Source of the DNA: Eleginops maclovinus
Taxonomy: Eukaryota > Chordata > Actinopteri > Perciformes > Eleginopidae
DNA length: 64,000 nt
Assembly (NCBI RefSeq): GCF_036324505.1
Contig: NC_086354.1
Coordinates: 1,124,339 to 1,188,338 of the forward strand
Direction of reading: 5' to 3'
A program made the position numbers and the translations under genes. The notes under the pieces were generated by a model, which saw only the letters and a list, made by a program, of their open reading frames with translations, had not been told where the DNA came from and ran no database searches. How positions within the stretch are numbered: the first letter of the stretch is position 1; the number at the start of each line of letters is the position of its first letter. Of this stretch, positions 8,414 to 61,699 are shown one piece after another.

Positions 8414-8504
8414 CAGTTTTTCTCAAACGTTTTCAGACCAAGGTAGGGGGGGGGATAATCATCAAGTTCAAAATTTCAACACACCCATTTGGGACTTGAT
8501 TTAC

Positions 8505-8701
8505 ACTATCAATACAAGAACTTTGACACCAAAAGTAACTCTGTATCTTGAAAATAACCCCCCACCCCTTGAAAATGAAAAAAAGAACCCCAAAAGTGGC
8601 ATTTTCTGCACATTCCGCCTGGTATGCATAAGCTGTTCTTACTGTTTGCCTATATACTGTTGAATAAATGCTTTCAAACCCATTTGATATTTAATAAACA
8701 C
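8505..8701. repeat. Imperfect direct repeat inside element U, left copy
   Basis: The run ACACTATCAATACAAGAACT, then TGTATCTTGAAAATA and later CTGTTCTTACTGT, matches 54346-54500 in the same order with about 20-25% differences. Removing BEL-1 makes the two copies adjacent, so element U carries a degenerate tandem duplication of about 190 bp near one end. BEL-1 inserted at the junction between copies. Confidence 0.65.
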
Positions 8702-9271
8702 TGTCAAGTTATCCAGATGTTAAGATTCAGATTCAGCTCTGCCCAAACTTGAAAACAGCTTGTTCAACACAAATAATGCAAGGGGACAACTCTGTTCCTT
8801 TCTGGTGATTTATTTTATTTTAGATTGATGGCACAAAGGGAAATTCCAGAGGAAGAATAGGTTGATAACCTTTAAGAAACAAAAAGGGCAAATCACAATC
8901 CACATCAGTATGCATCAATCCTGATCATTAAACTAAACATCTCATTTAAATTCAAAACAGATCAAAATCAAACAGAAAACAGCAAACAAATTATTCTTTC
9001 AAACTAAATATTTGAAGTCCATACCAGTTGCGTCTGTGGTTGAACATGAGCTGTCAGTAGGCTGAGGAGACCGAGCAAAGAGGGCTCGCCGAGCTAACTC
9101 CAAACATTTTATACTCATGCTTGATTAGAGGTGCGCAGGTGAAATCGATCCCTCCAGAAACATGGGTTACATCCTGTCTGTTGGGTGTCTGGGTGAGCTC
9201 TCTCTGCCCCCTTCAGGCCTGGAGTTCCTCCACAGATGCTGGTCCTATGCTCACACTTGTTTGACGCCACA
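8702..9271 (-). repeat. BEL-1 3' LTR
   Basis: 570 bp, starting TG and ending CA on the plus strand. It aligns along its full length with 53776-54344. I count about eight differences, including one in an A-run, so roughly 1.4% divergence. Confidence 0.93.
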
Positions 9272-9366
9272 CCTCCCACTTGACCTCCTGGTTCTTGAAC
9301 CCAAGGAGGTCACAGCACCTTAGTGTTGGGCAGGGTTTGTTTAAGTTGCCCTTTCAGTGTTGCTCT

Positions 9367-16505: not shown

Positions 16506-16669
16506 TGTAGCGAGAGCAGATGTGTACCTGTTGTATAGGGAACATATTAGGAGACGGACATACAGGAAGTAGGCAGGTTAAGTTGTAATACAGTTAATAA
16601 AGTGAACTGGACTATTAGTTGGCTCCTGTCTGGAACTATATATATTCGACATGTACAGAACATGTTACA
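16506..16669 (+). repeat. Gypsy 5' LTR
   Basis: 164 bp, TG...CA ends, followed immediately by the primer-binding site at 16670-16683. Confidence 0.95.
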
Positions 16670-16908
16670 TGGTGTCAGAAGCGTGCTGAATCCCGCCTCA
16701 GACGGTCGCTTGGAAGAAATTGCCCGTCAAGTTGCGGTAAATAATTAATTAGCGCGTAAATCGCGGTAGGTTCAAAAACTAGGCTAACGCTAGCCAGCAG
16801 TTAGAAACTGTGCAGCAAGCTAGTTAGACAGACAACGAGGGAGCCTGTCGGCACGGGACGTTAAGAGACAACGCAGAGAAGCCAGACAACGATACAAGGA
16901 AAGAAACA

Positions 16909-17396
16909 ATGGATTCCCTTTTCTCCATAAGCCCACCAGAAAACTTTGACTTTTCGGACTTTGCTAACTGGCCCAATTGGATTCGTCGGTTTGAAAGGTT
17001 CCGAGTTGCAGCTGGACTGGACAAGAAAGATGAAGATTATCAGGTGAATTCATTAGTATATGCAATGGGCGATAAAGCAGATGATGTTCTGTCCACGCTA
17101 GGCTTAAGTGCTGAAGATGCAAAGAAATACAAAGAGGTTAAAGAAGCCTTTAATAAATACTTCATAAGCAAATACAATGTAATATATGAGAGGGCTCGTT
17201 TCAATAAGAGAAGCCAAGAGCCAGGGGAATCTGCTGAAGCCTTCATCTCTGCAGTTTATAAGTTATCTGAGCACTGTCAATATGGCCCGCTGCAAGATGA
17301 AATGATCAGAGACAGACTAGTGGTAGGAATAAGGCATCACACCCTGTCTGAAAAGCTGTAAATGGACAGTGAATAAACACTGGAAAAGGCTGTTAC
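16909..17396 (+). pseudogene. Gypsy gag, 5' half
   Basis: ATG 16909 opens a 150-codon capsid-like frame. It contains FDFSDFANWPNWIRRFERF and ends in a Gypsy-type GIRHHTLSEKL. Two TAA codons follow within 12 codons (17359-17361 and about 17372). A MITE then interrupts the gene at 17397. The zinc knuckles lie beyond the MITE. Confidence 0.85.
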
Positions 17397-18222
17397 CAGG
17401 GTGCGATTTGACAAAAAAACAGAGAGGGGGATGTTTTTTTTAATTTATTCATAGACAAGAACATTGGACTTTTAACTTGCATAACTAGGGAGAAAAAAAC
17501 GCAAAAAGTAGACAGGCCTTTTTTTTCGGGTCCGTGGATTAGTCCCCATCACAACATGGCAAAACTTTTAATAACCCATACATGTTTCTATTCAACGTCA
17601 CAAAAACATGCGTACGCACTAACAGGCAGAAAGCACCATAGAACAGCATCAATGCTCTCCATGAAAAGACCCTCCAATTAACTTAAATCAAACACTCAAA
17701 ATAATTCACTAAATAGCACAACGTGCTGTCAACACTCAGGGACAGGTCTGGAAAACTAGACAAAGTAAACAGTCGGCTCTGGTGACAAATTTGTGGTGGC
17801 TTTTTCGTTTTTCCTATCGGGGCATTGTCTGCAGCATTTCGGCCCTCTTCTATCCACAATTCTGCAAATGGGTCCTGTAAAGTAAGATGATATGCTGCTC
17901 TGAACGCGTTTCATGTTTGGTTCAGCGCTGTTTTTCCTGCGAAGTTCCCGCACAAAAATGTTACAATGTTTTTGTGTTCGATGACGTTCAGAAATATGCA
18001 CCGTCTGCCAGAAGGCTGCTGAATAGCCTACTCTGATGTAAAGACACTGAAGATCGTTAGATTTCAAGAGTTTAAGTAGGCTAGCAGTTAAGTTGCATTC
18101 ATCGCTATCAAGGGGGGGAAATCCTTGTCCCCACCAGAGATAAAAATAATTTAGCAGAGGTAGGGATAGGAAAACCAGAGGGGGGGAAATCCTCACCATC
18201 CCCCCCTACAAATCGCACCCTG
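17397..18222. mobile_element. hAT MITE inserted in Gypsy gag
   Basis: 826 bp with terminal inverted repeats CAGGGTGCGATTTG and CAAATCGCACCCTG, flanked by an exact 8-bp TSD GCTGTTAC (17389-17396 and 18223-18230). There is no transposase. Near the right end two related segments containing GGGGGGAAATCCT occur about 75 bp apart. The length, TSD and ends identify a non-autonomous hAT. Confidence 0.95.
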
Positions 18223-18230
18223 GCTGTTAC

Positions 18231-18852
18231 TAAAATTAGGCAACATGAAGAAATTAAAAAACAGCAACCAACAGTGAGAGAAACAAAACCTACAGAACAA
18301 AGAGAGGCCAATGTGGACTTTCTGAAATTCAAGAAAAAGTCAAACACAGAGTACCAGACAGGGAAGACGTCCTACGGAAAGGGACAAAAGGATTTCCAGA
18401 AAGGACAGAAAAACTGTGGACGATGTGGAAAAGGACCACCACACTCTCTAAATAACTGTGCTGCAAGGGATGCTGAATGCCGAAAGTGTCAGAAGAGAGG
18501 ACATTTTGCAGCTGTTTGTAAATCAGGGAGAGTAGGGGCAGTTTTCGAGGCAGAAGAAGAGGATACTCTTTTCCTGGGAGCAGTGTCCACAGGAAAGAAA
18601 TCTGAAACATGGAAAAAAACACTAAGAGTGAATGGTCAAGACATTACCTTCAAGCTGGATACAGGGGCGGACGCAACAGTCATCCCAGGTAATGCCTACT
18701 CAGAAAAATGGCACGGCCCACTCACCAAAGCATCCATACCATTGTGTGGACCCAGCAATGAACCTCTAAAGGTGAGAGGTCAGTTTCATGGTGTCATGAA
18801 ATATAAAGAGAGAACAACAACACAACCAGTGTATGTAGTACAAAAGCTATAG
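18231..18852 (+). pseudogene. Gypsy gag 3' half (zinc knuckles) and protease
   Basis: After the MITE the frame gives two CCHC-type knuckles (CGRCGKGPPHSLNNC and CRKCQKRGHFAAVC). The retropepsin motif FKLDTGADATVIP follows at about 18650-18690. The frame ends at TAG 18850-18852, where a small indel shifts the downstream RT into another frame. Confidence 0.88.
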
Positions 18853-20610
18853 CTACTCCTCTACTGGGTCTGCCAGCAATCTCAGATCTAAAACTACTGC
18901 ATTTAGTCGACAGTGTAATAGAGCTAGAGGCTGACATGAAGAAACAATACCCCAAAGTCTTCACAGGACTGGGCTGCCTTACAGGGGAGTACAGAATCAA
19001 GTTGAAGCAAGACGTCAAGCCCTTCGCATTATCACTGCCACGACGTGTACCTCTACCGCTGCATGACAAAGTCAAAGAGGAGCTCCAAAGAATGGAAAAA
19101 ATGGGTGTGATTGTGCCCATTGAAGAGCCTACAGACTGGTGTGCAGGCATGGTGGTGGCACCAAAGCCCAAGGGAAAAATCAGAATCTGCTCTGATATGA
19201 CCCATCTGAATGAGTATGTTTGCAGAGAAAGACTCATCTTGCCGGCCGTTGACGAAACCCTGGCCAAGCTTGCAGGTGCAACGGTCTTTACTAAGCTAGA
19301 TGCTACAGCCGGATTCTGGCAGGTACCCCTACATCAAAACTCAGTCCCGCTGACCACATTTATCACCCCGTTTGGGCGATACTGCTACAAGAGACTCCCA
19401 TTCGGGATTTCATCCGCACCTGAGCATTTTCAAAGAGGCTCACACAGATGCTGACAGGGTTAGGGACTGTATGCCATGCTGATGACATTCTCGTGTTTGG
19501 AACAACACGTGAACAACATGACCACAGGCTGCACAGAGTGTTAGGGCGGCTCCAGGAAGAGGGCCTGACACTCAATAACGACAAGTGTCAGTTTGCGGTC
19601 AACAAGGTCATGTTCCTGGGCCACATCGTCAGTGCAGGAGGCATTGAAGCAGATCCAGGAAAAATTAAGGCAATCACAGAGATGCCCACGCCAAAAGACG
19701 CTGCAGACGTGAAAAGGTTTGTTGGCATGGTCAACTACGTGGGGAAATTCTCTCCACGGATATCAGAGCTCACACAACCGCTAAGAGAACTGCTCAAAAC
19801 AGACACAGACTGGGTGTGGGGGAGTGCACAGCAGAGAGCGTTTGACGAGCTGCGTAAGGAACTGAGCTCACCAACAGTACTGGCACAGTACTGCCTACAC
19901 AGAGAGACAATAGTTGCAGCAGACGCTTCGTCCTTTGGGCTGGGTGGAGTATTGTCTCAGAAGCAGCTGTCTGGAGAATGGAGGCCAGTTGCCTTCATAT
20001 CACGCAGCATGACAATCACGGAGCGTAGATACGCCCAGATAGAGAAGGAAGCGCTTGCACTGACCTGGGCGTGTGAACGGTTTCAGTCTTACCTGATAGG
20101 GATGGACTTTTTGATACAAACTGACCACAAACCTCTCATTTCACTGCTAGGCAGTAGAGCACTAGATGACTTGCCACCTCGCATTCTGAGGTTCAGGCTG
20201 CGGCTGCTTCGCTTCACGTACAAAATTGAACATGTGCCGGGGAAGAAATTGATCACAGCGGATGCACTGTCCAGGGCACCGATTCAAGCCCCGCCTACAC
20301 CAGAGGACGAGCAGCTGGAAGAGGATGTGTGTGTCTCCATCAACCTAATAATGGTGCACTTCCCAGTGTCAGAGCAGAGGTTGGTGCAGATCAAGACAGC
20401 ACAAGATTCAGATGATGTCTGCAAAAGGCTGAAAGGCATGGTGCAAACAGGTTGGCCTCAGAACAGAAAAGCTCTTCCACCACAACTGCAGCTGTACTGG
20501 CAGTATCAACAGGACCTGCTCGTTGTAGACGGACTACTGATGAAAGGCGAAAGACTCGTCATCCCAGTCACAATGCAAGAGGACATGATTAACAAAATAC
20601 ATGAACTCCC
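18853..20610 (+). pseudogene. Gypsy reverse transcriptase and RNase H, frameshifted
   Basis: The RT fingers and palm run in one frame to 19454 (KLDATAGFWQVPL, then FGRYCYKRLPFGISSAP). A small deletion there shifts the frame. The catalytic HADDILVFG then lies at about 19480-19506. RNase H follows (VAADASSFGLGGVLS, TDHKPLISLL, ADALSRAP). Coding similarity ends abruptly at about 20600, where the integrase zinc domain should begin. Confidence 0.88.
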
Positions 20611-21230
20611 GTCATGGAGTCCCGGAGACTGTCATCTCGGACAATGGCCCCCAGTTCTCTGCAGCGGAGTTTGCAGCCTTCGCCAGGGACTATGACTTCA
20701 CGCACACAACCAGCAGCCCCCGCTACCCTCAAAGTAACGGAGGAGAGGCTGAGAGGGCAGTGAGGACGGTGAAATCTCTCCTGAAAAAGGGGGAAGATCC
20801 ACACAAGGCTCTCATGGCCTACAGGGCCACTCCTTTGACACACGGCTCATCCCCTGCACAGCTGCTAATGGGCTGCAACATCAGGACACCCCTGCCGGTC
20901 AGTCAAGAGAAACTACAACCTGGATGGCCTGACCTCCAGGATTTCAGAAAGAAGGACCAGGACTTGATAGAACAACAGGCCTCCTGGTTCAACAAACGAC
21001 ACAACACAAAGACAAGACAACAGCTCAGACCAGGACAAAAGGTCTGGGTGAAGAACACAAAAGAAACAGGGACTGTCAGTGGTTCAGCTCAGACATCTAG
21101 GTCTTACAACATAGACCTGCCCTCAGGAACTCTCAGGCGGAACAGATCTCACATCCGGGTCATTCCAGAGACTACCAGAGAGACTAGATTGGGCCGGACC
21201 ATAAGACCACCAAACAGGCTGAATTTGTAG
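20601..21230 (+). pseudogene. Gypsy integrase, N-terminally deleted
   Basis: A 209-codon frame opens with SRHGVPETVISDNGPQF, the region of the second catalytic Asp, and ends with a C-terminal SH3-like region. The HHCC zinc-binding domain and the first catalytic Asp are missing, so an internal deletion joins the RNase H/integrase linker directly to the mid-core. The enzyme would be inactive. Confidence 0.85.
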
Positions 21231-21588
21231 ACTAGCTAGAAAGCTGTGGTTTGGTTCACAGGGCAGAATAAACCCTGCACAGCTTGGGGACCCGGGTAGT
21301 CCACGCCGACCCCTAGAGAAGAAAGAGTTTTGAAAAAAAAAAAAAAGGAAGAAAGAATTTCTTAATGGAAAATTATTATGTGTTCTACTGTATGTTTAAT
21401 GTTAACAGGAGATGTTATGCACTACTGAAAAGAAGAAAAAAAAAACAGGAAAGGAAAAGTAATGCTGGGGACTTGAATGTTTAATGGTTTAATATGTCAA
21501 TATGTTATACTGGTCAAGTTTATCTACAGGTACAGTAAAAACAAAAGAAGTTCTTTTAAGAATCTGACAAGTAACTAAAGGGGGGAGA

Positions 21589-21752
21589 TGTAGCGAGAGC
21601 AGATGTGTACCTGTTGTATAGGGAACATATTAGGAGACGGACATACAGGAAGTAGGCAGGTTAAGTTGTAATACAGTTAATAAAGTGAACTGGACTACTA
21701 GTTGGCTCCTGTCTGGAACTATATATATTCGACATGTACAGAACATGTTACA
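21589..21752 (+). repeat. Gypsy 3' LTR
   Basis: 164 bp, one visible difference from the 5' LTR (CTACTAGTT against CTATTAGTT). It is preceded by the polypurine tract and followed by TSD CCTCC. Confidence 0.95.
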
Positions 21753-22546: not shown

Positions 22547-25264
22547 GTTTTTATTTATTTATTTGTTTATTTGAAAAGGGACAGTGCACATTAATTAACA
22601 TTCTCAATGTAAACATACACTAAAAACGTAAATGTGCCGGAGTTAGCCAAAGCTAATTTTCGTCCGTAGTGCCCCGGCAGGTCAACACATCATCAACTTA
22701 CACATTACAAAAGAGTAAAGACAGAATAAATACAAATGGCCTAGAATGAATTAAGACAGCTATTAATGAGTGCAGTTTTGATTGTTTTTAATCCATCTCT
22801 TAAGTGTTGTTTTAAATAACTGATAGCTGGTGCTGTCTCTGATTTTGTGTGGAAGGCAGTTCCAATAATTTGAGGCCCGAACTGAGAAGACTGTTTGGCT
22901 AAATTTACTATGTCTGTACTGTACAACACAGTCTCCCCTGGTGGCTGCCCTAGTTGCCCTGCCACTGCTGCTCTTCTGTTGAACAAATTCATCCAGTGGA
23001 GGAGGTGCAAGCCCATGTAATATTTTAAAAATAAGACAGGCATCTAGATAATGTAAAAAACTGTCAAAGCTAAATAAATTATATTTTGTAATGATATGAC
23101 AGTGGCGGTAACTGATAGGTTTTTGATCTAGTGTTTTTAAAGTTTGCTTATAGAGGGTTTCTATTGGTTTAAGAGTTGTCATGTTTGCTTGGGACCAGCT
23201 TGTGTAGCAGTATGATATGTGAGAAAAGATCATGGCATGCATAAAAAGTTTAGCTGCCTCTGTCGTTAAGTATGGCCTTATATGTCTAAAATTAGCCAGA
23301 TTATATCTGATGGTATTAGCCACCTTTTTAACATGCTTTTTAAAGGTTAAGTTAGAATCTAGGATGATGCCAAGGTATTTAAAATCAGACACAACCATGA
23401 GCTTTTCTCCTTTAATATAGACATCAGCCTGTGGTGCACTTGAGGATCTCTTAGAAAAGAACATACAGACTGTTTTATTAATGTTAAGATGTAGATATGA
23501 CCTTTCTAGCCAGTCAGAAACATGTACCAGTGTTTCAGTTAGTTTTGCTGCAGCCTGTTGCTTGTTTTTGGAATGCACATAAAGAACGGTATCATCTGCA
23601 TACATCTGTATATTAACAGAGGGACAAACTGAAGGTAAGTCGTTAATGTACAAGCTAAACAAGATAGGGCCCAGTACTGACCCCTGGGGTACACCAATAT
23701 TACAGTCCAGATATGATGAATAAGAATTACCTATATGTACACTCTGTTTCCTGTTAATAAGATAGGACTCCATCCATTTCATGGCCTCAGCTGAGAAGTT
23801 AAAATAAGATAATTTAGATAAAAGTGTCTGGTGATTCACGGTGTCAAAAGCCTTCTTAAGGTCCAGAAACACTGCACCTACTATACCACCCTCATCTAAT
23901 TTTGACTTGATGTTTTCAAGGAGGAAACAGTTAGCTGTATCTGTAGAGTGGTTTGTACGAAATCCAAATTGCATTGGGTGTAAAGGACTGTGGCCCAAGT
24001 TTAGATGATTTTTCAACTGTTCTGCCACCCATTTTTCTGATACCTTGGAGATTACTGATAGTATACTAATGGGTCTATAATTTGACACCATGGTTTTATC
24101 ACCAGACTTATAGATTGGAGATACCACTGCTGTTTTCCATGAACTTGGAAAAGTGCTTTGCCTAATTGACAGGTTGATCAGATGAGCAATGGGGCAAGCA
24201 AGTGTATCCCTGTGTGATTTTAAAAATGTGGTATCCCAACCATATGAATCCCTTGCTTTTGAGTTCCTCAAGGAGGTTATAATTTTGATAACCTCTGATT
24301 CAGATATTTCCTTTATTTTAAAAATAGGTTTAGTATCATCAATGGGGATAGATGGCACAGTTTCAGTTAGGATACCTTGAGCCAACTCCCTGACTGATTT
24401 TATAAAGAAATCGTTAAAAGTAATTGCAATCATATCATTATCTTGGGTCAATATTCCATTGATTTTAAGTTCAGGTAAAGTTGTTCTTTGTTCTTTATTC
24501 CTACCAATTAGTTTATTAAGATTTTCCCAAATAAGTTTCCCATTTCCCTGTGCTTCATTAATGATTCTAATAAAAAAATCTGCCTTAGCCTTTCTTAGAT
24601 TCCTTAATACTTTATTTCGGAGAGTTGTGAAGGCAAGCCGGTCACTACTATGCCCTGATTTTAGAGCCCTCTTTAAAGCAGAATCTCTATCTTTCATTTG
24701 TTGCCAGAGAGTGTCATTTAGCCATGGTACGGTGGTCTTTTGTCCATGTTTCTGTTTCACCTTCCTTGTGAAGTTTGCTCTTATTTCGTTAATGGTAGAG
24801 AAAAAAGTACTGCAGCTAACTTCAGTGTCTCTGTTGGTTAGAAGATCAGACCAGTCAATTTGATTTATAGCATTCTCCAAGTTCACTATTTCGTTTTTAG
24901 GAATTTTCTCATAAAATTGATTTCTTATGGTAGAATTTCCAAGTCGTTTTCTGGTTAGTTTCCTTACCAGCAATGTGATATTATGATCAGACAGACCAGT
25001 CAACATGTTATGCGATGTAGTTACTCTCTCCGGTCTGTTTGTAAATATCAGATCGATTTGTGTCTGAGAGGAGTTGGTTATTCTTGTCGGACCTTGTATC
25101 AGTTGGGAGAGATTGAATTTATTAGTTATATCTTTTAAGTTTTTACGCTCAGTTTTTTTGTTCCAGTTTATATTAAAGTCACCCATTAGTATTAACTCCT
25201 TTTTAACATCACATTGCTTAAGAATATTATGAAGATGCTCATAGAATATGCTATTGGATGATGG
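22547..25264 (-). mobile_element. 5'-truncated non-LTR retrotransposon (LINE)
   Basis: The minus-strand 3' end is an AAAT-type tail (plus-strand TTTATTTATTTATTTG from 22549). The 5' end is truncated within the endonuclease domain. Insertion split the BED-finger exon of hAT-1. TSDs are not clear; a short AACC microhomology is present at both junctions, so each boundary is good to a few bases only. Confidence 0.85.
22763..25264 (-). pseudogene. LINE endonuclease (partial) and reverse transcriptase
   Basis: The protein begins within the apurinic-type endonuclease (RPPSSNSIFYEHL, then LILMGDFNINWN). It continues open through RT. Visible RT motifs are FRTNHSTDTANCFL, AVFLDLKKAFDTVNH, GVPQGSVLGPILFSLYINDL and the catalytic MYADDTVLY. 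The RT belongs to the jockey/CR1/L2/Rex-like assemblage; I cannot fix the clade. No internal stop is present over about 830 codons, so the only visible defect is the 5' truncation that removes the start and much of the endonuclease. Confidence 0.88.
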
Positions 25265-25857: not shown

Positions 25858-25933
25858 CAAATGAGCAAAATATCCGTTTTAAATATCCGTTTTGGGACTG
25901 TCCACGACTTCAACGGATATTTTAGCTCATTTG
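25858..25933. repeat. Short inverted repeat
   Basis: CAAATGAGCAAAATATCCGT (25858-25877) is matched in reverse by ACGGATATTTTAGCTCATTT (25913-25932) with one extra base, around a 33-bp spacer. It lies just left of the CAGGGCCG end at 25938. It could be a terminal structure of hAT-1's 5' flank or a tiny foldback insertion. Confidence 0.7.
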
Positions 25934-35470: not shown

Positions 35471-35472
<2 letters not shown>

Positions 35473-35545: not shown

Positions 35546-35547
<2 letters not shown>

Positions 35548-44567: not shown

Positions 44568-44608
<41 letters not shown>

Positions 44609-45379: not shown

Positions 45380-47803
45380 ATGGCGGACCAAGACGTTCTG
45401 AGTGACGTGCGTCATGACGATAGACAAAGGACGTTAACAGCTAAAGGACTGGAAGACAGATTACACTGTGTGACAACAGCCAGAAGAGGTAAAGTAGGAC
45501 AAATGACAGCAAAATCTAACGAAATAGAGAAGCTCTTGCGAGGTGAAAATGTACCAGCTTTGGGAGATGTTAAAAAAGAAATGAAAGTTTACAACAAGTT
45601 GTTTGAAGAGTTTAATGAATGCAATCAGGCAGTGTTGTTGTATCTTATTAATGAAGAGGAAAAGGAGGCTGACCAGCAGATGTGGTTTCAGCCAAAGTCA
45701 GAACAGTGCTTACAGTTTATGACAAATACAAAGAAGTGGATTGAAGCACAAGTAGCTGATCAAGAGATAACACCAGGGGACAGTGTTTCTAGAATTTCAA
45801 GGAGATCAAGAGTGTCAAGTGTATCTTCAGCACGAGTTAAAGAAGAAGCTAATAGAGCAGCTCTCATAGCACAAGCATCTGCTTTAAAGGAAAAACAAGT
45901 GTTAGAAATGAAAGAAGCGGAAATTAAAGCAGCAATGGTAAGATTGGAAATTGAAACTGCTCTAGCAGTATCTACTGCCAAAGTAAAAGTGTATGAAGAA
46001 TCTGAAGGGCGACTGTCTCAAGTGAGTGGGGCCAAAGCATTACCAACGCAGCTTATTGATTTCAAAACTGAAGATGGATATGGCGATATGCAAAACATTT
46101 CAGCCACACCAAAATTCACTGACAGTGCAAGGCTATTCACTGAAAGACCTGAAGACCAGATGCGTACTGGTTACCCAGGAGCGTCACCCGGCGCCACACC
46201 AAAACAACCAAGAGCTCCACAGCCGCCACTGAGAGCTACGCCGCTGCTGCCGCCTAGAGCTACCCTGCAATTGCCTAGTGCTACGCTGCAGCCACCCAGA
46301 GCTATGCTACCGCCGCCTATGCAACTCAGAGGTACTTCATACCAAGACACTGCTACCAGTGAGATGTATCGTATGATGCAAAAACAGACAGACATCGCAG
46401 AGATGCTTGCAAGAAATCAGCAGCTGTTCCGCTTACCTCAAAGAGACGTGCCTGTGTTCCAGGGAGACCCGCTGGAGTACAGATCGTTTACGAGAGCATT
46501 CCTTCATGCCATTGACTCCAGAGCAGACAGCGATGCTGACAAGCTATATTTCTTGGATCAGTACACCAGAGGTGAACCTCGCGATCTAGTGAGGAGCTGT
46601 CAGCATATGCCTGAACAACGCGGCTACGCTAAGGCTTGGAAGCTGCTTGAAGGAAAATATGGACATGAGCTGAAGGTGGCTACGGCGCTAATTGAGAAGG
46701 TGTCCAAGTGGCCTCAGATCAAGGCCGAGGATAGTAAAGCATTGAGTGCATTCTCTGTGTTCCTGGTGAGCTGTCGTAATGCCATGGAAGATCTGGATTA
46801 TATGGAAGAGATGGATAATCCCACTACCATGAGGGTCATAATTTCGAAGTTGCCATTCAAAACACGAGAAAGATGGAGAGCTCATGCGTATGACATCCAG
46901 GAGAAGCGCAACAAAAGAGCAAGATTCACAGAGCTGGTGAGCTTTGTGGAACGTCAAGCAAAGATTGTGTCTGACCCACTCTTCGGCGATATTGACACCA
47001 CAGCCACAGATAAGGTCACTAAGAAACCACAGCAGGGATACAAACTAATGAAAGAAGGAAAGCAGGGAAGTAGTTTTGCTACTAAAGTTGACCAAGTTAG
47101 TGGAAGTGAGTCAAGCGACACAAAGTCGAAGTCAGATGTCTCACTCAGCAGAGCCTTTACGAAGCCCTGCCTGTTTTGTGAAATGAATCACACATTGCAT
47201 GAGTGTCGCAAGATTAAAGAAAAGGCTCATAGTGACAGAGTGAACTTCTTGAAGAAGAATGGACTTTGTTTCAGTTGCCTAGTGAAGGGTCATCTGAGCA
47301 AGGAATGTAAGAAGAAGATGACATGCGATGTTTGCGCTCTGAAGCATCCAAGCCTGCTGCATTTTTATAAGGAGATCACCAAGGAGAAACCTGTTGGAAC
47401 TGAGGTCAACAAAGTCAGTGCTGCCAGAGCACCACCAGAGGTGTCAGAAGAGAAGGAGACTAGTGCCTGTACTGGGGCTGGAGACAGGTGTGTGCTTGCC
47501 ATCGTTCCTGCGCAAGTGAAAGTCAGCAAGAGTGACAAGACTGTCGAGGTCTACGCATTCATGGACCCTGGCAGCTCTGCGTCATTTTGTACGGAAGCTT
47601 TGGCAAGGCAGCTGAATGTGCAAGGCAGACGCACTGATCTCATGTTGAGTACCATCAATTCCAAGGGCAAGGTAGAAAGCTACGTCCTCACAGACTTGGA
47701 GGTCAGCAGCCTTGAAGACAACAATTTCATCGTAGTGTCAAAGGTCTACACACAGAAGAGCATTCCTGTGTCTCGAGAACATTCCGCTTCAGAGAGAGAT
47801 TGA
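45380..47803 (+). CDS. BEL-2 gag and protease
   Basis: ATG 45380 opens MADQDVLSDVRHD. A coiled-coil-prone N-terminal half (Lys/Glu/Ala-rich, residues 20-210) is followed by a Pro-rich linker and a capsid-like region (VFQGDPLEYRSFTRAFLHAI). Three zinc-binding clusters follow (CLFCEMNHTLHEC, CFSCLVKGHLSKEC, CDVCALKHPSLLHF). The retropepsin motif VYAFMDPGSSASFC lies at about 47550. The 807-residue frame ends at 47803, about 25 bp after coding similarity switches to the pol frame. In intact BEL/Pao elements gag and pol are usually one frame, so the end of this ORF is a break point rather than a true C terminus. Confidence 0.9.
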   Translation: MADQDVLSDVRHDDRQRTLTAKGLEDRLHCVTTARRGKVGQMTAKSNEIEKLLRGENVPALGDVKKEMKVYNKLFEEFNECNQAVLLYLINEEEKEADQQMWFQPKSEQCLQFMTNTKKWIEAQVADQEITPGDSVSRISRRSRVSSVSSARVKEEANRAALIAQASALKEKQVLEMKEAEIKAAMVRLEIETALAVSTAKVKVYEESEGRLSQVSGAKALPTQLIDFKTEDGYGDMQNISATPKFTDSARLFTERPEDQMRTGYPGASPGATPKQPRAPQPPLRATPLLPPRATLQLPSATLQPPRAMLPPPMQLRGTSYQDTATSEMYRMMQKQTDIAEMLARNQQLFRLPQRDVPVFQGDPLEYRSFTRAFLHAIDSRADSDADKLYFLDQYTRGEPRDLVRSCQHMPEQRGYAKAWKLLEGKYGHELKVATALIEKVSKWPQIKAEDSKALSAFSVFLVSCRNAMEDLDYMEEMDNPTTMRVIISKLPFKTRERWRAHAYDIQEKRNKRARFTELVSFVERQAKIVSDPLFGDIDTTATDKVTKKPQQGYKLMKEGKQGSSFATKVDQVSGSESSDTKSKSDVSLSRAFTKPCLFCEMNHTLHECRKIKEKAHSDRVNFLKKNGLCFSCLVKGHLSKECKKKMTCDVCALKHPSLLHFYKEITKEKPVGTEVNKVSAARAPPEVSEEKETSACTGAGDRCVLAIVPAQVKVSKSDKTVEVYAFMDPGSSASFCTEALARQLNVQGRRTDLMLSTINSKGKVESYVLTDLEVSSLEDNNFIVVSKVYTQKSIPVSREHSASERD

Positions 47804-50800
47804 CAAGTGGCCATACCTCAGAGAGGTTAGGCTGCCTCAGATCGATGCTGGAGTGGAGCTTCTCATTGGAACAAAAGAGTACACCATCTTGGAGCCATGG
47901 AAAGTGATCCCAAGTAAGGACAATGGTCTATATGCTGTGAAAACTGCACTTGGATGGATCCTGAACAGGCCGCTTAGAGAGACAGACACTGCAGCTGACG
48001 ATCATGCACAATCACATGCTGTTGTGAACAGAATAGCCATGGACAGTGTGGAGCATCTGCTTATACAACAGTATAACCATGATTTTCCTGAAAGCCACTG
48101 TGATGAAAGATCTGAAATGTCTCAGGAGGACCACAAATTCATGGAGTCTGTGTCCAGTTCTGCCCGTCTTATGGATGGACATTACTACATCAGTCTGCCA
48201 ACAAAGAAGTTGTGTGTCCAGATGCCGAACAATCGCAGTTCAGTGCTACAACGTGTGTTGAACCTCAGGAACAAGTTGAAACGGAATCCCGAGTTCCATG
48301 AAGAATATACAGCCTTTATGAATGACATGCTGAGCAAGGGGTACGCCGTTGAGGTTCCTAAGCCACAACTGAACCGCCATGATAGAAAACTGTGGTATAT
48401 TCCCCACCACGGGGTATATCACCCACAGAAGAAGAAGCTCCGCGTCGTCTTCGACTGTGCGGCCAGCTACCAGGGAGTCTCACTAAACAGTGAGCTACTT
48501 CAGGGACCGGATTTAACAAACTCGTTGATTGGAGTTCTTCTCCGCTTCAGGCAAGAACCAATTGCGATGATTGCAGACATCGAGGCCATGTACCATCAAG
48601 TCTGCATTCCTGAGAATGACACCAACCTGCAGCGCTTCCTGTGGTGGCCAGCAGGAGACCTAAGTCAAGACATCGTTGAGTACAGGATGACAGTCCACAT
48701 TTTCGGTGCGACTTCTTCTCCTAGTTGCGCGAACTACGCACTTCGAAGAACGGCTGAGGAGAACCGCAGCAAGTCATCACCTGAAGCTGTGAACTCAATC
48801 CTGAAGAACTTCTATGTTGATGACTCATTGACATCTGTTGCTAATGAAGATCAAGCAGTCAAGCTGTACAAAGACCTCACAGCATTGTGCGCTAGTGGAG
48901 GATTTCGTTTAACGAAGTGGGCAAGCAACAGCCGAGCGTTGCTCTCCTCTGTCCCTGACCATGAAAGAGCGAAAGACATCAGAGACCTGGACTTGACCCA
49001 CGACGCGCTACCCATGGAAAGAGCTTTGGGTGTTCTATGGAGCACTGAGTCTGATGCCTTCAAGTTTAGGATCAACGTCAAAGATAAACCTGTCACGAGA
49101 CGAGGAATTCTCTCGATCACAAGTTCCATCTATGACCCGCTCGGATTCCTCGCTCCAGCAATTCTTCCTGCAAAGTTGATACTACAGCAGATGTGCAAGG
49201 AGGAACTTGCTTGGGACGAGAAGATTCCAGAACAGCTCAGCAGAAAATGGAACAATTGGCTGAAAGAACTAAACCAGCTGTCAGCTGTGACCATACCGAG
49301 AGGCTTGAGACCAGTGGAATTTGGGCCTGTGACTACAGCACAGCTCCACCATTTTTTTGATGGAAGCGAAAGTGGGTATGGAACTGTCTCTTACCTACGG
49401 TTGACTGGTGAAGATGGACATGTTCATTGCGCCTTTATGAAGGGCACATCCCGCGTGACTCCAATTAAGCAGACCACTATCCCACGCATTGAACTGACAG
49501 CAGCGATGGTTGCTGTGAAGACAGACAAGATGCTGAGAAGCGAGCTCCAGATGGATCTACTCGATTCTTTGTTTTGGACTGACAGCACAACGGTGCTAAA
49601 GTACATTGAGAACGAGAAGCTTCGCTCTAAGACATTCGTTGCAAATCGCATCGCTGTAATCAGAGAGCTAACCATGCCTCAGCAATGGAGATATGTTGAC
49701 ACATCAACTAATCCCGCCGATTGTGCATCCCGAGGGCTTGCACCAACCAAATTCATGAAGAACGCAAGCTGGTTCCAGGGTCCAGCTTTTCTTAAAGAAC
49801 CAGAACACAACTGGCCAAAAAGACCTGACAAAACAGAAACTGACGAAGTTGACAATGAGGTGAGACACACCGCCACAGTTAATCTCACAAAAGCAGCTGA
49901 AGATGTGCATCTCGTGAACAAACTGTTCGACCACTACTCGAGCTGGTACCGTTTGAAGAGAGCTGTGGCGTGGGTTCTCAAGTTTAAAGACCTGCTTCTG
50001 CAACGCTGTAGAAAAAAGAAAGAACAAACAAACACAGACAATACGAACAGACAAGACAAGAAACCAATGACAACAACCACAATACTTACCTTGGAAGACC
50101 TAATGCAAGCAGAAACAGAGATCATCAAGTTCTGTCAGAACGAATGTTTCCAGGAAGAGATCACCATGCTAAAGAAAGGCAACAGCGTGAAGAAGACCAG
50201 TCACTTGCGGAAACTCGATCCAAAACTTCATGAAGGTGTGCTGAGAGTCGGAGGTCGTCTCTCTGCTGCTGCTATGCCAGAGCACTCAAAACATCCAGCA
50301 ATCCTTCCGAAGGACCTACACGTCACCACATTGATCTTGAGAGACACTCACGAAAAGATTGGACACTGCGGAAGACTTTACATGCTCTCCCAGTTACGAC
50401 AAGAATATTGGATACCCTCTGCCAACTCAGTAGTGAGAAAGTTTCTAACAAGGTGTGTGATCTGCAGAAAAGTTAAAGGCAAACCTTTAGAGCAGAAGAT
50501 GGCAGATTTGCCAGAAGACAGACTTCTGCCTGACAACCCTCCTTTCACCAACGTGGGGGTCGACTACTTTGGGCCATTTGATGTCAAACAAGGCCGCAGT
50601 ACAGTCAAAAGATACGGTGTGCTGTTCACCTGTCTCACAACGAGAGCAGTGCACATAGAGATTGCGCACACATTGGACACTGATTCTTGTCTGAATGCCA
50701 TCAGACGTTTTGTGTGCAGGAGAGGACAGGTGTCTATTATGCGCTCAGATAATGGCACTAACCTAGTGGCCGCTGAGCGTGAGCTGCGTACAGCAATTCA

Positions 50801-51443
50801 ACAGTGGAACCAGTCCAAGATATCAGAATCCGTGATGCAAAGAGGAATTCAGTGGATATTCAATCCACCCTCTGGGTCTCACTTCGGGGGAATTTGGGAA
50901 AGGCAGATCAGATCTGTGAGAAAGGTTCTCCGGTCTGTGCTCAAGCAACAGACAGTCAGTGATGAATGTTTGCTGACACTGATGTGCGAAGTGGAGTCAG
51001 TGCTGAACAATAGACCACTGACCACAACAACAGACGATCCAACAGATCCGGAGCCGTTAACCCCTAGCCACTTGCTACTGATGAAGAAGCAGCCAGTCCT
51101 TCCCCCTGGACTGTTCCAAAAGGAGGACTCATATTCCCGCCGTAGATGGAGGCAAGTGCAACATCTTGCTGACGTGTTTTGGAAGCGGTGGGTGCGTGAA
51201 TATCTACCCATGCTGCAGGAGCGACAGAAATGGACCAGCGTCAAGAACAACTTGAGTGCCGGGGACATCGTCATGATCGTCGACGATACTGCACCACGAA
51301 GCTCGTGGGTACTGGGGAGGGTTCAACGGGTGATTCCAGATGCCAAGGGACTTGTGCGACGTGTGGTCATCAAGACAAAGACCAGCACCTTAGAAAGACC
51401 TGTTGACAAACTTTGCCTCATTTGCGAAAAGGACAGTGAGTGA
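47780..51443 (+). CDS. BEL-2 pol: RT, RNase H and integrase
   Basis: The pol frame is continuous from about 47785 to 51443. The first in-frame ATG (47853) lies inside the conserved linker, so it is not the natural start. Landmarks are RT (LRVVFDCAASYQGVSLN, catalytic FYVDDSLTS near 48825), a BEL-type RNase H (HHFFDGSESGYGTVSYLR) and integrase with a zinc domain (RCVICRKVKGKPL). The integrase triad is NVGVDYFGPF, MRSDNGTNL and HFGGIWERQIRSV. No stop occurs across 1196 codons after that ATG. Relative to gag the frame is displaced at CTCGAGAACATT (about 47777-47788), where an apparent loss of two bases in a GA run would explain it. Confidence 0.9.
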
Positions 51444-51626
51444 TAAAAAAAATAAAATAAATTTAAAAAAAAAAGGAATGTGAATATTGTAACTTTCTGA
51501 ATGTTATCTGTGAAAGATGTGAGTTTCGTTGATAGGTAATACTTAATGTGTGATTTGTTTGGCTCTATAGTTGTTATTATAGTGAGTAATTGTCAGCCTT
51601 CATGTCTTACAATTAGGGGCTGGAAA

Positions 51627-52141
51627 TGTGAGAGCCAAATTATTGTTAAGTTATTTTGATTAATATTTTTGAATGTAAATAGGTCAGAATAATATTAACA
51701 ATGTTGTAGACTAGTTAAGTTAAATATGCTGATTTCGAACTGTGTTATTAATGCTGAAATTTGATAGGTTAACAGGATTCTAAGGGATACGTGTAATTTT
51801 GTATGAGAGACGTGCTGCTCAGTTGACGTGCGTGCAGCAACGAAGGCACATAGCTTTTTGACCGTGTCCGTTTCCCTGGCCTTGTCCGTGCCTTATGAAG
51901 GATAATACCAAGTGATATTACTATTTATTTTACCTGTTTTGTGTTTGTACCAAGATATTTTTGTGTTACCAAGACGTCAAGAATTAAAGAAAACAAAAAG
52001 AAACTCAACTGGTCCGTGAGTACACTGAAAGTAAAATGAATAACGGTGAAGCATGGGATATGGAACGAGTCAGAAAACCTTAGGCTGCCCACACGAAGTG
52101 GTCTAATTAATGAACCCTGAAAACGAAGTTTGGCCACTACA
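51627..52141 (+). repeat. BEL-2 3' LTR
   Basis: 515 bp, TG...CA, followed by TSD ACCAT. Reads the same as the joined 5' LTR parts along its length. Confidence 0.95.
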
Positions 52142-53775: not shown

Positions 53776-54344
53776 TGTCAAGTTATCCAGATGTTAAGAT
53801 TCAGATTCAGCTCTGCCCAAACTTGAAAACGGCTTGTTCAACACAAATAATGCAAGGGGACAACTCTGTTCCTTTCTGGTGATTTATTTTCTTTTAGATT
53901 GATGGCACAAAGTGAAATTCCAGAGGAAGAATAGGTTGATAACCTTTAAGAAACAAAAGGGCAAATCACATTCCACATCAGTATGCATCAATCCTGATCA
54001 TTAAACTAAACATCTCATTTAAATTCAAAACAGATCAAAATCAAACAGAAAACAGCAAACAAATGATTCTTTCAAACTAAATATTTGAAGTCCATACCAG
54101 TTGCGTCTGTGGTTAAACATGAGCTGTCAGTAGGCTGAGGAGACCGAGCAAAGAGGGCTCGCCGAGCTAACTCCAAACATTTTATACTCATGCTTGATTA
54201 GAGGTGCGCAGGTGAAATCGGTCCCTCCAGAAACATGGGTTACATCCTGTCTGTTGGGTGTCTGGGTGAGCTCTCTCTGCCCCCTTCAGGCCTGGAGTTC
54301 CTCCACAGATGCTGGTCCTATGCTCACACTTGTTTGACGCCACA
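53776..54344 (-). repeat. BEL-1 5' LTR
   Basis: 569 bp. As the element lies on the minus strand, this right-hand copy is the promoter-bearing 5' LTR. It is followed on the right by TSD AACAC. Confidence 0.93.
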
Positions 54345-54597
54345 AACACTATTAATAGAAGAACTGTTACACCTCAAAGTGACCCTGTATCTTGAAAATA
54401 TTCCCCTATCCCTCTTTAAAATTAAAAAAAGAACACAAAGCGTTTTTTTTTAGCTGTTCTGCCCTTTGTATGCATTCACTATTCTTACAGTCTGCCAATA
54501 CTAAAAGACTAAACTCCTTTGGACATTTTTTATTTCAAATACAAAACAGTCACATTGACATGGAAAGAACTTGAACTTGTCAGTCTTAAGTAGCACC

Positions 54598-57474
54598 TCA
54601 CATTTTTCTTAGCCTTTCAAGACTTTCTTGGAATTTTGCATATTCCAGTGTGGTTCGGTCGCTCCTCTTGCCTAGGTACGCCATGAGAGCATCTCCAAAC
54701 TCCTGTGCTGTTTTCATCCTCCTCTTCCCACTGGGCAGTGTCACCTGGATTCTGAAGATAGGATCGACTTTAGGCAGAAGCGTGGTGCTTTCTCTGGCAA
54801 ACTGAACCTCAAGCTTCATCCTCTGCAGCTTTGCGTTGTTGTTCAGACTTTCATCCACAAGGAACTTTTCAACTTCCCCACTGTCAGTGAAGGGGCCACC
54901 TCTAGATTTCAGTGTGTCCAGCATGTCTAGTCTCTTCCTCTCCTTTCTTTGAGCCATCTCCTGTTTCTCATCTGCCCCAATCTCGAATTTCGCCTTCATG
55001 AGTTTACTCCAGTTGAGTTCAACCTCTCTTTTTGCTTGGGCTGCTGCCTTGAAACCTCTGAAGGACGGAATCTGTCCATCCCTAAGCTCCTGGCTCTTCT
55101 GTAAAATTATTGACCTACTGACTGCGTTCAGTGTGCCTAGCTTCTTCAGTCTGTAGTCCACCTTGCCACATTATCTCTCCGTCCCAATGTTGTGCACAGG
55201 GGTGCCATCAATGTTACTAGCCTGTTCACTGACAGGGTAGTCCATTGGGAAGGTCTCCTCATCAATCCCATAGTCCCTCCTCTGCCTGGCCAGGACAGTC
55301 TTCAGATGGGGCTGCATGAGATCTGTCAGCTTCTTCACTTCATCCAAGTGTTCGGCAGCCACATCTGACACTGAGTTCAAGACCTCTTCCGTGTAGGTCT
55401 TCTTTACGCTACTGAAAAGCTTGTCAGACACTACAGGATACTCAGGTGTTGTGAACGTAGTATAGTTGTCGCTGATTGGCTGGCCCAAGCCTGTATGCAG
55501 TCCCTAGTAGAACTCCCTGAGCTGAGTATGGGTAGCATCTTTCTCTATGGTTCTGGCATAGAAGTGCTCCACCAAGTGCACACCCAGGCAGGCAAACACC
55601 AAAAGGGCCACTTTGAGGTAGGGAAGCTCCATCACTTCTCTGACGAGGCAGGCCAGGCGGTTGTTTATGTGAGGGTTCTGGCTCAGGAACTCTGTCAGAT
55701 GGCCAAAGTGGTATATTAGGACTGCTGCTGCCCTGGAGAGACATCCAAACCTTCTGTCTTTGTAGGAAAACAGCACACTGGATACCTGCCTTTGCTCAAG
55801 GAAGAGGAGGAATTCCCTGTAGCGGTTCCAGGGTTTGTGGGAATACTCAGGAGCCACCAACTTGAGGCACATGTCCAGTGCCTGTCCAGCCACACTGGCA
55901 TTCTTGCTGTCTACATCCAGATCCACCATAAAACTCTGTAGCACTTGCTCCATCTTCATATCGGCCTCCACCAAGCGCATCACTTTATTCATGGCACTGC
56001 TGAAGCCCAGTGTAGTGTGGGTGCCACAAAAGATCTGACCTGCTGGTGTTTCCAAGTTGTACATCTCTGCCAACAGCTTTGAAAACCCTTTGTTGTGCTC
56101 TGTGCTGTCAGTCATATGTGCATCTACAAGTTTATAAACATCCTCCACACTGACTCCTCTGACCGACGCCAGTATTTCGAACCCCATATCCACTTGCATT
56201 GCTATGTCCTCAGTGGTCTCTCGATGAATTGGTAAGATAGGCAGAGGAAATGGGCTATCTTGACCCACATGCAGCCCTTGTACCATGCACTGGCCTACAC
56301 CTTTCTTTGTGGTGCTGTCCGATGCATGTTTGATCATTTTACCTTTCTCCTTCTCCTCCTCAAGCTTTTCCACAACTAGACACAGACTTTGGGCCTCAAT
56401 TTGCTGTAGAGCTGTCCTTATGCTTCTAGTACTTGGCACTGTATCCTTGTCAAAGACCTCATCAGATTCCCCAGCACTTTTCCAACTTCGTCCAAACATA
56501 GTGTTGCCTACTTCAATCACAGCTGAGCTCGCCTCACTGATAGAAAGTCCCTTTCCTGAGAGATTGGCTATAGTTGTATAGAAGTCATCCCGGACTTTTC
56601 TCTCGGACAATCGTATGTGTTGAAACTCTTGTGGTAGTAGATCTTCATCCTTGTCTAGTTCAGCAACATCTGTGAAGAGTCTTTTCCTTCCTTTGGGTTC
56701 TGCTCGCACCTCACTCTCTTTACCCTCCTTTTGAAGCTGTGTGTCAGTCTCAGACATCTGTCTCAGTTGATTTGAGGGTGTGCCCTCTTTCTCTTCATCG
56801 CTGCTGCAGCTGGATATCTCACCAGTTTCAATCAAGATATCTGTGATATGGTCCAGAGTTTGATATGAGAACTGCTGGTCTCTCTTCCTCTGGTACTCTT
56901 CGCTCCTCTCCCTCAACCTTTGGGTTCGCATCATGCTATGGTACCAGACAGGGTCCACACCTTTGGAACAGAACATCCTTCGCTCTGTCTTCTGATCTTC
57001 ATAGTATTTGTGCTCCATCTCACTCATGCTTACACACCACTCTTTCTCCAGTGATTGCCGCCGTAAAGGGTCATGGGCAAATACATCAAAGAGCTCAGAC
57101 TTTGTATGAAATAACTCTTTGTATTGTTTGACAGCCAGTGAGTCTTCTTTCCCTGTCTGCCCATACCTCTTTCTGCCCTCACTGAACTGTTTCCAGATCC
57201 TTTCTACCTTCCTCTGGATGGTGCTCAAGGAAACACAAAACACAGTGTCGTAGTAGTACTTGGCCTAGACCTGTTTTGCCACCTCCCGTGCTGCCATGGT
57301 TGCAGTCACTTTCCCATTGCCCATCTCCAGGTGGTACCGTATCATGCTTATGACACTCTGCAATGTGGGGAGTTTTGTGGGTGGATGGAAGTTCTTGGAG
57401 GGAGGAAAGTCAGTATCTGCATTATAAATGTTTCCAGTAGATCTAGTTTTGGACATGCATTTGGGCTCTGCCAT
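54598..57474 (-). pseudogene. Element U transposase-like protein (959 codons, three stops)
   Basis: A single minus-strand frame from ATG 57474 (MAEPKCMSKTRS) to 54598 is broken by TAG 57265-57267, TAG 55504-55506 and TAA 55171-55173, with no frameshift. Features in order: an N-terminal region with a helix-turn-helix-like look (about residues 35-100), a Lys/Glu-rich acidic linker (about 200-290), then a conserved-looking core. The core has HASDSTTKKGVGQCMVQGLH (about 384-403), DAHMTDSTEHNKGFS (about 451-465), CGTHTTLGFSSAMNK (about 483-497) and INNRLACLVREVMELPYLK. A Lys/Arg/Glu-rich C-terminal domain follows. The DST and TDSTEHNKG motifs followed by C-x-x-H suggest an RNase H-like transposase core. 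That is inference from layout plus the TIR and TSD context, and I do not recognise the family. Confidence 0.6.
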
Positions 57475-58245: not shown

Positions 58246-58309
58246 ACCAAGGACCACTTAACCAATTAAAAGATACTCACGGACCACCTAACTCCCCCAA
58301 TATCCCAAA

Positions 58310-58360
58310 ACAAGATTCAAGATTCAAGAAGCTTTATTAATCCCGAGGGAAATTGAGGTG
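58310..58360 (-). repeat. LINE/SINE 3' tail-like fragment
   Basis: On the minus strand, TTTCCCTCGGGATTAATAAA followed by GCTTCTTGAATCTTG is a string I associate with 3' ends of fish non-LTR elements. It lies in the hAT-0 3' region. Boundaries and family are uncertain. Confidence 0.35.
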
Positions 58361-58860
58361 CAACAGTTCAATACAAAGAAGGAAGGAGAAATATAAACTA
58401 AATATAACTAAATATAAACTAGAATAAATACAATAGGCCTGCTTACTACTCCAACAGTATATTACAAATTACAGCCTAATAACAGCTTTATGTGACCTTC
58501 TCTATATCGCTCGTTCACACATTAAATCAACAATACAAATACAACTACGGATTTTACAAACATTTCGTTCACATGCGATTTAAACGGTAAATGCTGATAG
58601 ATTTTACACATCATATGAAACATAGACTACATTTATTACTGAGTTTATGTCCGAGCGAACAGAGAGATACGCAAAATGCACCGCATTTAGTACGACACAA
58701 ACTTCTGCTGTGTATTTTCAAAAATAAAATACAGTAAAACTATGGTTGCAGGCCCAAGTTTAACAAGAATTTAACAATAAACACAAGGTAATTATTTACA
58801 CTGTTACATTTACAAATAGCATTGTTTACTCACTCATACACTGCGTGTCTCTGTTGCTAC

Positions 58861-60858
58861 CTAATGGGAGGAATGGTGCTGCTTGTGCTGAGACATCAGT
58901 GAAACAATGTCTGGATCCAAACTGGAGAGTTTTAGTCTCATATCACAGTCCACATTGATCCTGTTACGCTGCTTTGTTTTCAGACCAACAAGTGTAGAAA
59001 AACCAACTTCACAGTTGTAGGTGGTTGGAAACGGCACCAACAGTTTCAGAGCAGCGTCAGTCAGCTCTGGGTGCTCAGGCTGGATGTGGACCCAAAAGTC
59101 CGTCAAGCTTTTCTCTCTGAAAGTCGTCCTCAGTGTCCCATCAGATGCGATGTCCACAAGGCTGTCAACCTGTCTTGATGGGAGCTTGGAACTGACGTGT
59201 TCGATGTGCGTTTTGTCCCCAAATGGATTCCTGATCCACTCATAGCCTGCATCTAGTTCTGGGAAATATCTTCCCAGCTGAAAGTGAAGGCCTTGCAGAT
59301 GTTCCTTGAAGGCTGCAACTGTGCCGCCGTCCAGCTCTTCATCTGCAGCGAGGAGAAAATCCACAAGCGTCGGAAAACAGTCAAACTCCTGGCGATCCAG
59401 ACGGACACACCACAATTCCATCTTGAGGCGTGCAGCTTTAATTTTGTCCTGCACATTGAAGGCGGTGACGGCTTTTCCCTGCAGCGCTAAGTTCAAAGCA
59501 TTGAGTGTGCTAAAGACATCGGCCAGGTATGCCAATTTTGAGAGCCACTGGAAATCATGCAGTCTGTCATACAGTTCATCAGTATGATGCAAGAATAACA
59601 TCACCTCATCGCGCAGTTCAAATAGACGGGTGAGAACTTTCCCACGCGACAGCCAGCGAACTTCAGTATGGAAAAGCAGTTTTGTGTGTTCACTTCCCAT
59701 TTCATCACACAGAGCTTTAAAAAGACGTGTGTTCAGTGCTTTGGTTTTTATTGTATTAACAATTTTCACAGACTCGTCCAGTACTGATTTGAGGCATGGT
59801 GGCATTTTTTTCACAGCCAGCTGTTCTCTGTGAATGCAACAGTGTGTTGACTGTGGCGCAAGGTGCAACTGCGCGTACGCGCGCTGCCAGTCCCTTGTTT
59901 TTCCCAGTCATTGCAGTTGCACCATCTGTGTAAATACCAACACATCGTGTCCAGTCGATATTATTCTGCAGGATGAAATCGTTGACTGAGTCAAAAATGG
60001 CTTCCCCTGTGGTGTTGGTCGGCAGGGAACGACAAAACAGAAATTCATCCTGCACACCGCCATCATAAATGTACCTTACAAAACACAGCAGATTTGCCTC
60101 ATTCACGATATCAGTTGACTCGTCCAGTTGCAGTGTGAAAAACTGGCTTTGGCGTAAACGTGTGATCAGCTGATCTTTCACATTTTCGGCCATGGCTGTT
60201 ATTCGCCGCTGGACAGTATCATTGGAGAGGGAGACCCTGCTAATTTCGTCGCTTGCTTTCTCCCCAAACAATACATTAGCCATAACCTTGGCAGCTGGTT
60301 TGACTAAATTCGCACCTATCGAATGAGGTTTCCCTGTTTTTGCGATGAGAAGGGATACCCTGTATGATGCCTCTGTAGCCTTCGCATTTTCCCCCGTTGC
60401 AAAAAAATGTGAGGGCGCCTTCATCACGTTTTCTCTCAAACAATGCTAAAGGTTTCCCGATGTATTCCTTGTGTTTGCTCTCAAAATGACGCTTGAGCTT
60501 GGCGGGTTTCATAGCCTCGTTAGCCAAGGACTGGTAGCACAAAACAGTGTGGATTGGGATCCTCTTCATCTCCAGTCCAGAAAAATCCGAATTTTATGTA
60601 GTCGCTGTGATATTTTCTCTTCACTTTAGTGCTGGATTTTCAGCGATCAAGCCGAGTTACACAGCTTTCAGCCGGGTGGTGGTTAGACGGCGATCCGCTC
60701 TCCTGGGACTCAGTAACGCACACAAAATCACTTGTCGCTGCGGCTGAACCACTTGTAGTTGCTGGATCTCCTGCATCAGGACGATGCACCTTGACTGTCA
60801 CGTCAGATTTGTCATTTAATTTTCTTTTAACTGACCCTGTCTTTAGCCATCGATCCAT
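58861..60858 (-). pseudogene. hAT-0 transposase remnant (SCAND3/ZBED5-like)
   Basis: ATG 60858 opens MDRWLKTGSVKRKLNDKSD. A BED-type finger is spread over two frames (FGFFWTGDEEDPNPHC then LANEAMKPAKLKRHFESKHK). The core DDE-like region reads FTLQLDESTDIVNEANLL and CVGIYTDGATAMTGKNKG. The C-terminal part runs from FHTEVRWLSRGKVLTRLFEL to NCEVGFSTLVGLKTKQRNR at the dimerisation domain. At least three frameshifts are needed (near 60.53, 60.41 and 59.86 kb). The gene is dead, as expected for the oldest layer of the nest. Confidence 0.85.
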
Positions 60859-60891
60859 CTTGTCAGTTGACAGCTCAAATTGACCGCGCAA

Positions 60892-61096
60892 ATCATTTAT
60901 GAGTAAGATCGTAACCTACGTAGCTACGCTACATCCATGCTACACTCTATACTAGTCATTTTAAGACAGTTTGAGGAACACTTTAAACTTATAATATATT
61001 AATTTCAAATGTGACATTTTACCAAAATACTCACAAACCACTAGGGGTCGCTCACGGACCACCAGTGGTCCGCGGACCACTCTTTGAGAAAGACTG
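60892..61096. other. hAT-0 right terminal region
   Basis: Non-coding sequence between the transposase start and the right TIR. It includes GGTCCGCGGACC-type palindromic and CACGGACCACC motifs repeated near 61050-61080, typical subterminal hAT motifs. Confidence 0.6.
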
Positions 61097-61690: not shown

Positions 61691-61699
61691 TGCGCATGC

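Follow-up and report, generated by a model that had tools for sequence, protein, structure and literature searches.

Nested clusters of transposable elements (TEs) reach up to 8 layers on wheat chromosome 3B, according to the description published for it (PMC4290129), and the notothenioid lineage is described as one known for TE-driven genome growth (PMC10256766). Here, we analyse a TE stack in the fish Eleginops maclovinus. The window, meaning the whole stretch of 64,000 nucleotides, is C6:1124339-1188338 in an assembly of 606,306,633 bases and 27 contigs. Its positions 8414-61096 (52.7 kb) hold 14 elements or more, and 8 of them are nested on one main path, from outside to inside hAT-0, element U, BEL-1, hAT-1, BEL-2, the outer hAT-N, hAT-C and a non-autonomous element like a miniature inverted-repeat transposable element (MITE). 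This is almost certainly a genuine nest made by successive independent insertions. The first-pass annotation had claimed such an eight-deep nest, and the claim holds, as the ends were re-read in the sequence and the layer order stands wherever it can be tested.

The outer four layers all lie on the minus strand. The first, hAT-0, spans 8414-61096 as a 30-bp left end plus 58253-61096 and carries a degenerate DUF4371-type transposase. The second, U (8444-58245), has about 4.15 kb of its own DNA with TAGGGG..CCCCTA ends, and its coding stretch 57450-54610 contains three in-frame stops. The third, BEL-1 of the BEL/Pao group (8702-54344), is bounded by TG..CA long terminal repeats (LTRs) of 570 and 569 bp at 8702-9271 and 53776-54344, and has the Pao peptidase, DUF5641 and DUF1759 domains each in a separate frame. 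The fourth, hAT-1 (14050-52242), has its hAT transposase in pieces; its dimerisation domain scores 19.4 bits in Pfam, just below the cut-off of 21.4, and its N-terminus looks BED-like by eye.

The inner four layers begin with BEL-2, another BEL/Pao element (33902-52141, plus strand), which has LTRs of 515 bp and gag-like and pol-like open reading frames (ORFs) at 45380-47803 and 47853-51443. Inside its 5′ LTR lies the outer hAT-N (34069-39619, plus strand) with about 0.78 kb of its own DNA. This in turn encloses hAT-C (35684-39589, minus strand), whose ORF at 35947-37920 encodes a transposase with DUF4371 and dimerisation domains. The innermost layer is the MITE-like element of 940 bp at 38177-39116.

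Inverted termini close the DNA elements on either side, and the retroelement LTRs run from TG to CA. Target site duplications (TSDs) had been described as exact for seven of the path elements, and all seven are so, standing at the terminal inverted repeats (TIRs) or LTR ends of structurally complete inner elements. From U inward, they are ACCAAGG (7 bp) for U, AACAC (5 bp) for BEL-1, CTCCCAAC (8 bp) for hAT-1, ACCAT (5 bp) for BEL-2, and then three of 8 bp, GATACGTG for the outer hAT-N, CCCCCGCG for hAT-C and GTTCCTCG for the MITE-like element.

Excision of an insert with one TSD copy restores contiguous host sequence at every join that can be tested, and for five of the seven joins on the path there is a matching sequence that lacks the insert. 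For the outer hAT-N, the joined flanks are identical at 80 of 80 positions to the uninterrupted 3′ LTR of BEL-2 in the same window. The other four (the hAT-C, MITE, U and BEL-2 sites) have spanning matches in other copies of the host family, found by the alignment that the earlier reader had proposed. The flanks of hAT-C, once joined, agree at 52 of 52 positions with the terminus of the inner hAT-N, which is a side branch within the outer one.

When both inserts were skipped, a 249-nt query of the outer hAT-N was spanned from position 9 to 249, across the inner hAT-N and hAT-C joins, at all six other loci taken as the best-scoring of the 56 matches listed, with L001 and L008 (the window itself) excluded. 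Five of these loci are 97.1–99.2% identical and one is 84.2% identical with 37 gap positions. The MITE site is crossed by the hAT-C copy at C6:31861-32080 over 220 columns at 99.1%. The 180-nt join of hAT-0 around U is matched over its full 1-180 at 40 of 40 places scored among 547 first-look candidates (97–98%), and its 378-nt version has an end-to-end match at C6:174831-174423 (91%, 31 gap positions). The 216-nt join of hAT-1 around BEL-2 is likewise spanned at 40 of 40 places scored among 172 candidates (86–99%).

The TSDs were also set against a chance baseline. A blind scan of the window sought exact 8-bp direct repeats around CA..TG TIRs that match each other, inverted, at 9 or more of 12 positions. 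It returned 12 pairs, as compared to a mean of 1.3 (range 0–5) when 20 first-order Markov resamples were scanned. Real elements account for seven of these pairs, namely hAT-1, the two hAT-N copies, hAT-C, both MITEs and the side-branch hAT-2; nothing further supports the remaining five.

The LTR pairs give relative ages. They differ at 7 of 569 positions in BEL-1, at 1 of 164 in a side-branch Gypsy element and at 0 of 515 in BEL-2, and the divergence of BEL-1 against that of BEL-2 gives Fisher p = 0.016. The LTR divergence thus falls inward in agreement with the nesting order. Moreover, both LTRs of a retrotransposon are made from one during reverse transcription, and BEL-2 carries the outer hAT-N in its 5′ LTR but not in its 3′ LTR; therefore the outer hAT-N, hAT-C, the MITE-like element and the inner hAT-N should all have landed after BEL-2 integrated.

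The stack was almost certainly built in the following order. The hAT-0 element came first, U entered its left end, BEL-1 entered U, and hAT-1 BEL-1. BEL-2 then inserted into hAT-1, the outer hAT-N into the BEL-2 5′ LTR, hAT-C into hAT-N and the MITE-like element into hAT-C, with Gypsy (carrying its own MITE), a LINE (long interspersed nuclear element), hAT-2, Harbinger and the inner hAT-N as side branches. A transposase or integrase, either the element's own or one borrowed from elsewhere, inserted each of them and left the TSDs. A few kb of neutral, already repetitive DNA beside a gene may have made a tolerated target that went on growing, and we infer that tolerance, not active targeting, made the pile.

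Several points weigh against this reading. The outermost layer has no TSD, its two ends being flanked by CTTTAAAT and AGTCAATA, just as the first-pass annotation had said. The short joins of BEL-1 in U and of hAT-1 in BEL-1 found no match in C6:1-210000, a miss that is uninformative because no piece of U, BEL-1, BEL-2 or hAT-1 matched that region at E 1e-10; these two joins are placed by TSD and structure alone. The Harbinger, Gypsy-MITE and hAT-2 joins likewise had no match in C6:1-210000 and are placed by TSD and TIRs. In principle, hAT-1, Harbinger and the Gypsy MITE, sitting in retrotransposon bodies, could have been carried in rather than have landed. Finally, a depth of at least 8 arose in 1.4% of 50,000 simulated runs, in which 14 elements of approximate lengths were dropped at random into a growing nest, while the real locus had been picked for being deep. 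The commonest simulated depth was 5. The chain is thus somewhat more linear than a simple random model expects, and its depth speaks only weakly for a cause other than chance.

The only other hAT-0 copy examined at both ends, at about 172–174.8 kb of C6, shares these ends and is flanked by an exact TSD of 8 bp (GGATAGGT), which means that the hAT-0 ends are right and that the flank of the window copy has changed. The change may be, for instance, an ectopic exchange between abundant copies or a local repeat change near a 26-bp tandem array. It is a serious possibility, short of a probable one, that hAT-0 here is a recombinant of two copies whose flanks were joined by ectopic exchange, with the inner seven layers as described. 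The hAT-0 family is abundant and homogeneous enough for that, as its scored matches above attest; the exact TSD is at the other copy and none at this one; and the 26-bp array (61104-61183) adjoins the right end. However, across the U site the left 30 bp and the sequence from 58253 onward join into unbroken sequence of the family, and a flank mutation or repeat expansion would erase the TSD too. Farther right of the nest, at 61470-61691, lies an AT-rich tandem array of 21/64 bp, and a similar stretch occurs in the next 10 kb (L011:3808-3916).

Active targeting would mean that chromatin state or sequence preference drew the elements together, as in self-targeting nests or a PIWI-interacting RNA (piRNA)-cluster trap. 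It would account for the rarity of such depth under random insertion, and for at least four insertions (both hAT-N, hAT-C and the MITE-like element), probably five with Harbinger, after a BEL-2 whose LTRs are still identical. The inner hAT-N inserted into another hAT-N, and the nearby 10-kb pieces L010 and L011 lack pieces of the nest elements at E 1e-8. We nevertheless regard it as unlikely, since the simulated lengths are approximate and the locus is the deepest seen, the families involved have unlike target rules, and a hAT-0 copy about 28 kb rightward (C6:1215908) shows that such elements also occur nearby. As to unrelated repeats joined by the assembler and only looking nested, the tested families are multi-copy, where assemblers fail, and hAT-0 lacks a TSD. 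Yet spurious joins would not produce an exact TSD on either side of every element, nor would skipping the inserts then give back uninterrupted sequence of the family. The window is also internal to a contig of 26.17 Mb, and the artefact was dropped as highly improbable given the uninserted matches at the tested joins.

Two joins of the side branches, those of the inner hAT-N and of Gypsy, stand as well. The inner hAT-N (34755-35603, minus strand) lies inverted within the outer one, has the TSD GTTGTAGC and differs from it at 6 of 677 sites. At its insertion site, the joined sequence aligns to that of the inner copy, apart from one insertion or deletion in a T run. Between 34069-34745 and 34859-35603, the two copies differ mostly in length (68 gap columns plus 6 substitutions), and the inner one contains a 72-bp GT run at 35473-35544.

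The Gypsy element (16506-21752, plus strand), with 164-bp LTRs and the TSD CCTCC, lies in a coding stretch of hAT-1. Its join found no match in C6:1-210000, and keeping one CCTCC copy lets the hAT-1 transposase be read through the site without interruption. Within Gypsy lies a MITE-like non-autonomous element of 826 bp (17397-18222; TSD GCTGTTAC). Harbinger (40113-45179, plus strand; TSD TAA) is inserted in BEL-2 and has a DDE_Tnp_4 ORF at 41958-42794. A 268-bp piece of it (41323-41590) is flanked by TAA at either end, its termini match as inverted repeats at 15 of 16 bases, and it may be a further nested element.

The first-pass annotation had counted at least 13 elements. Those it listed stand, and the count was slightly low, as a LINE and hAT-2 bring it to at least 14. 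The LINE (about 22552-25271, minus strand, edges approximate) is 5′-truncated, encodes an endonuclease and a reverse transcriptase, and splits hAT-1; no clear TSD was found for it there.

The hAT-2 element (25453-33743, plus strand) is 8.3 kb long, is flanked by ATGGTGAC and lies immediately upstream of the inferred hAT-1 start codon. Its 865-residue transposase ORF (30713-33310) shares 99% identity over 94% with a protein of Eleginops maclovinus, and a search of viral_contigs with the protein found no relatives. Inside the open ORF, at 30888-31059, there is a 54-bp tandem repeat with 99% matches. A second copy at C6:206435 is about 99% identical, with CCTGTGGG on both sides, and lacks the segment equivalent to 25939-30498 of the window. 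That segment contains a second, divergently oriented DUF4371 gene on the minus strand, with a hAT-like end at its start and no clean TSD. A search for an inverted partner of the end at 25939 found none, and a scan for further ends in hAT-2 around the second gene gave no convincing pair; the highest-ranking one, around the 865-residue ORF, has TIRs matching at 10 of 14 positions and a repeat of 7 bp. Either one more hAT nested at this place or a deletion in the C6:206435 copy may account for the segment.

Element U is the least familiar layer. Its transposase, as modelled, resembles the fold of Hermes and so appears hAT-like. The matches listed, at least 50, are Hermes and retroviral integrases and exclude nothing. 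The Pfam hits of 18 relatives, taken to an E of 1, contain no hAT domain and no other relevant family, and a profile of U has no match among PDB sequences at E up to 1. As to termini, hAT elements have an 8-bp TSD and CAG..CTG ends, whereas U, in the one copy, has a 7-bp TSD and TAGGGG ends. BEL-1 sits at the junction of two direct repeats of about 200 bp in U (8503-8701 and 54346-54552, 71% alike), a placement that either chance or target preference may explain.

The U protein (54610-57450, minus strand) has relatives of 95% identity in Caligus rogercresseyi, a sea louse, and in Dissostichus, and no relatives were found in the viral_contigs and genome_contigs searches. In the tree, the louse copies lie inside a clade of 100/99 support with the window copy and Dissostichus, and they adjoin the Dissostichus copies at 93/84, below the star threshold of the tree program. 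With close to even confidence, and tentatively, we propose U as a hAT-fold lineage outside Pfam that passed horizontally between notothenioid fishes and this ectoparasite. Literature on sea-louse transposon transfer yielded nothing on U, the family not having been searched by name. U offers a testable case of a transposon common to a fish and its parasite.

Two described groups come near U. IS3EU is given TA..TA ends and a TSD usually of 6 bp, and Dada a TSD of 6–7 bp and RNA genes as targets, with Dada-U6 and Dada-U1 lacking TIRs (PMC10045372, PMC3706591). U is like IS3EU in its TA..TA ends and unlike it in its 7-bp TSD, and the 18 U members have no rve hit, where IS3EU has an integrase-like transposase. 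With Dada, compared by description only, U shares the TSD length but has short TIRs and hAT-0 as its target.

About 1.1 kb from the nest lies an open C-C chemokine receptor gene (CCR12a/CCR8-like) at 6154-7332. Its ORF is at most 87% identical to the other receptors listed, the best being in icefishes, and a partial relative of this stretch occurs in L010. Beside it, the nest provides a well-fixed relative clock with eight ordered insertions and two LTR clocks agreeing with the order, and can help to order when the TE families were active.

Most layers belong to known superfamilies. With the hAT superfamily (Dimer_Tnp_hAT and DUF4371 domains; Hermes as the solved member), hAT-1, hAT-2 and hAT-C share 8-bp TSDs, CA..TG ends and the transposase domains, whereas the hAT-N and MITE layers are non-autonomous and hAT-0 is broken and without a TSD. 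BEL-1 and BEL-2 share with BEL/Pao retrotransposons the Pao peptidase A17, DUF5641, DUF1759, the 5-bp TSD and the TG..CA LTRs, but BEL-1 is split by 38 kb and BEL-2 holds an insert in one LTR. The wheat 3B clusters, as published, likewise consist of successive insertions of elements into one another and reach the same depth. Here, however, the host is a fish, the path is of hAT-type, U and BEL/Pao elements, and the whole occupies 52.7 kb beside an intact gene. Hence, the nested arrangement is of a kind already known, although so great a depth is rare, and the present example is an unusually complete and recent one.

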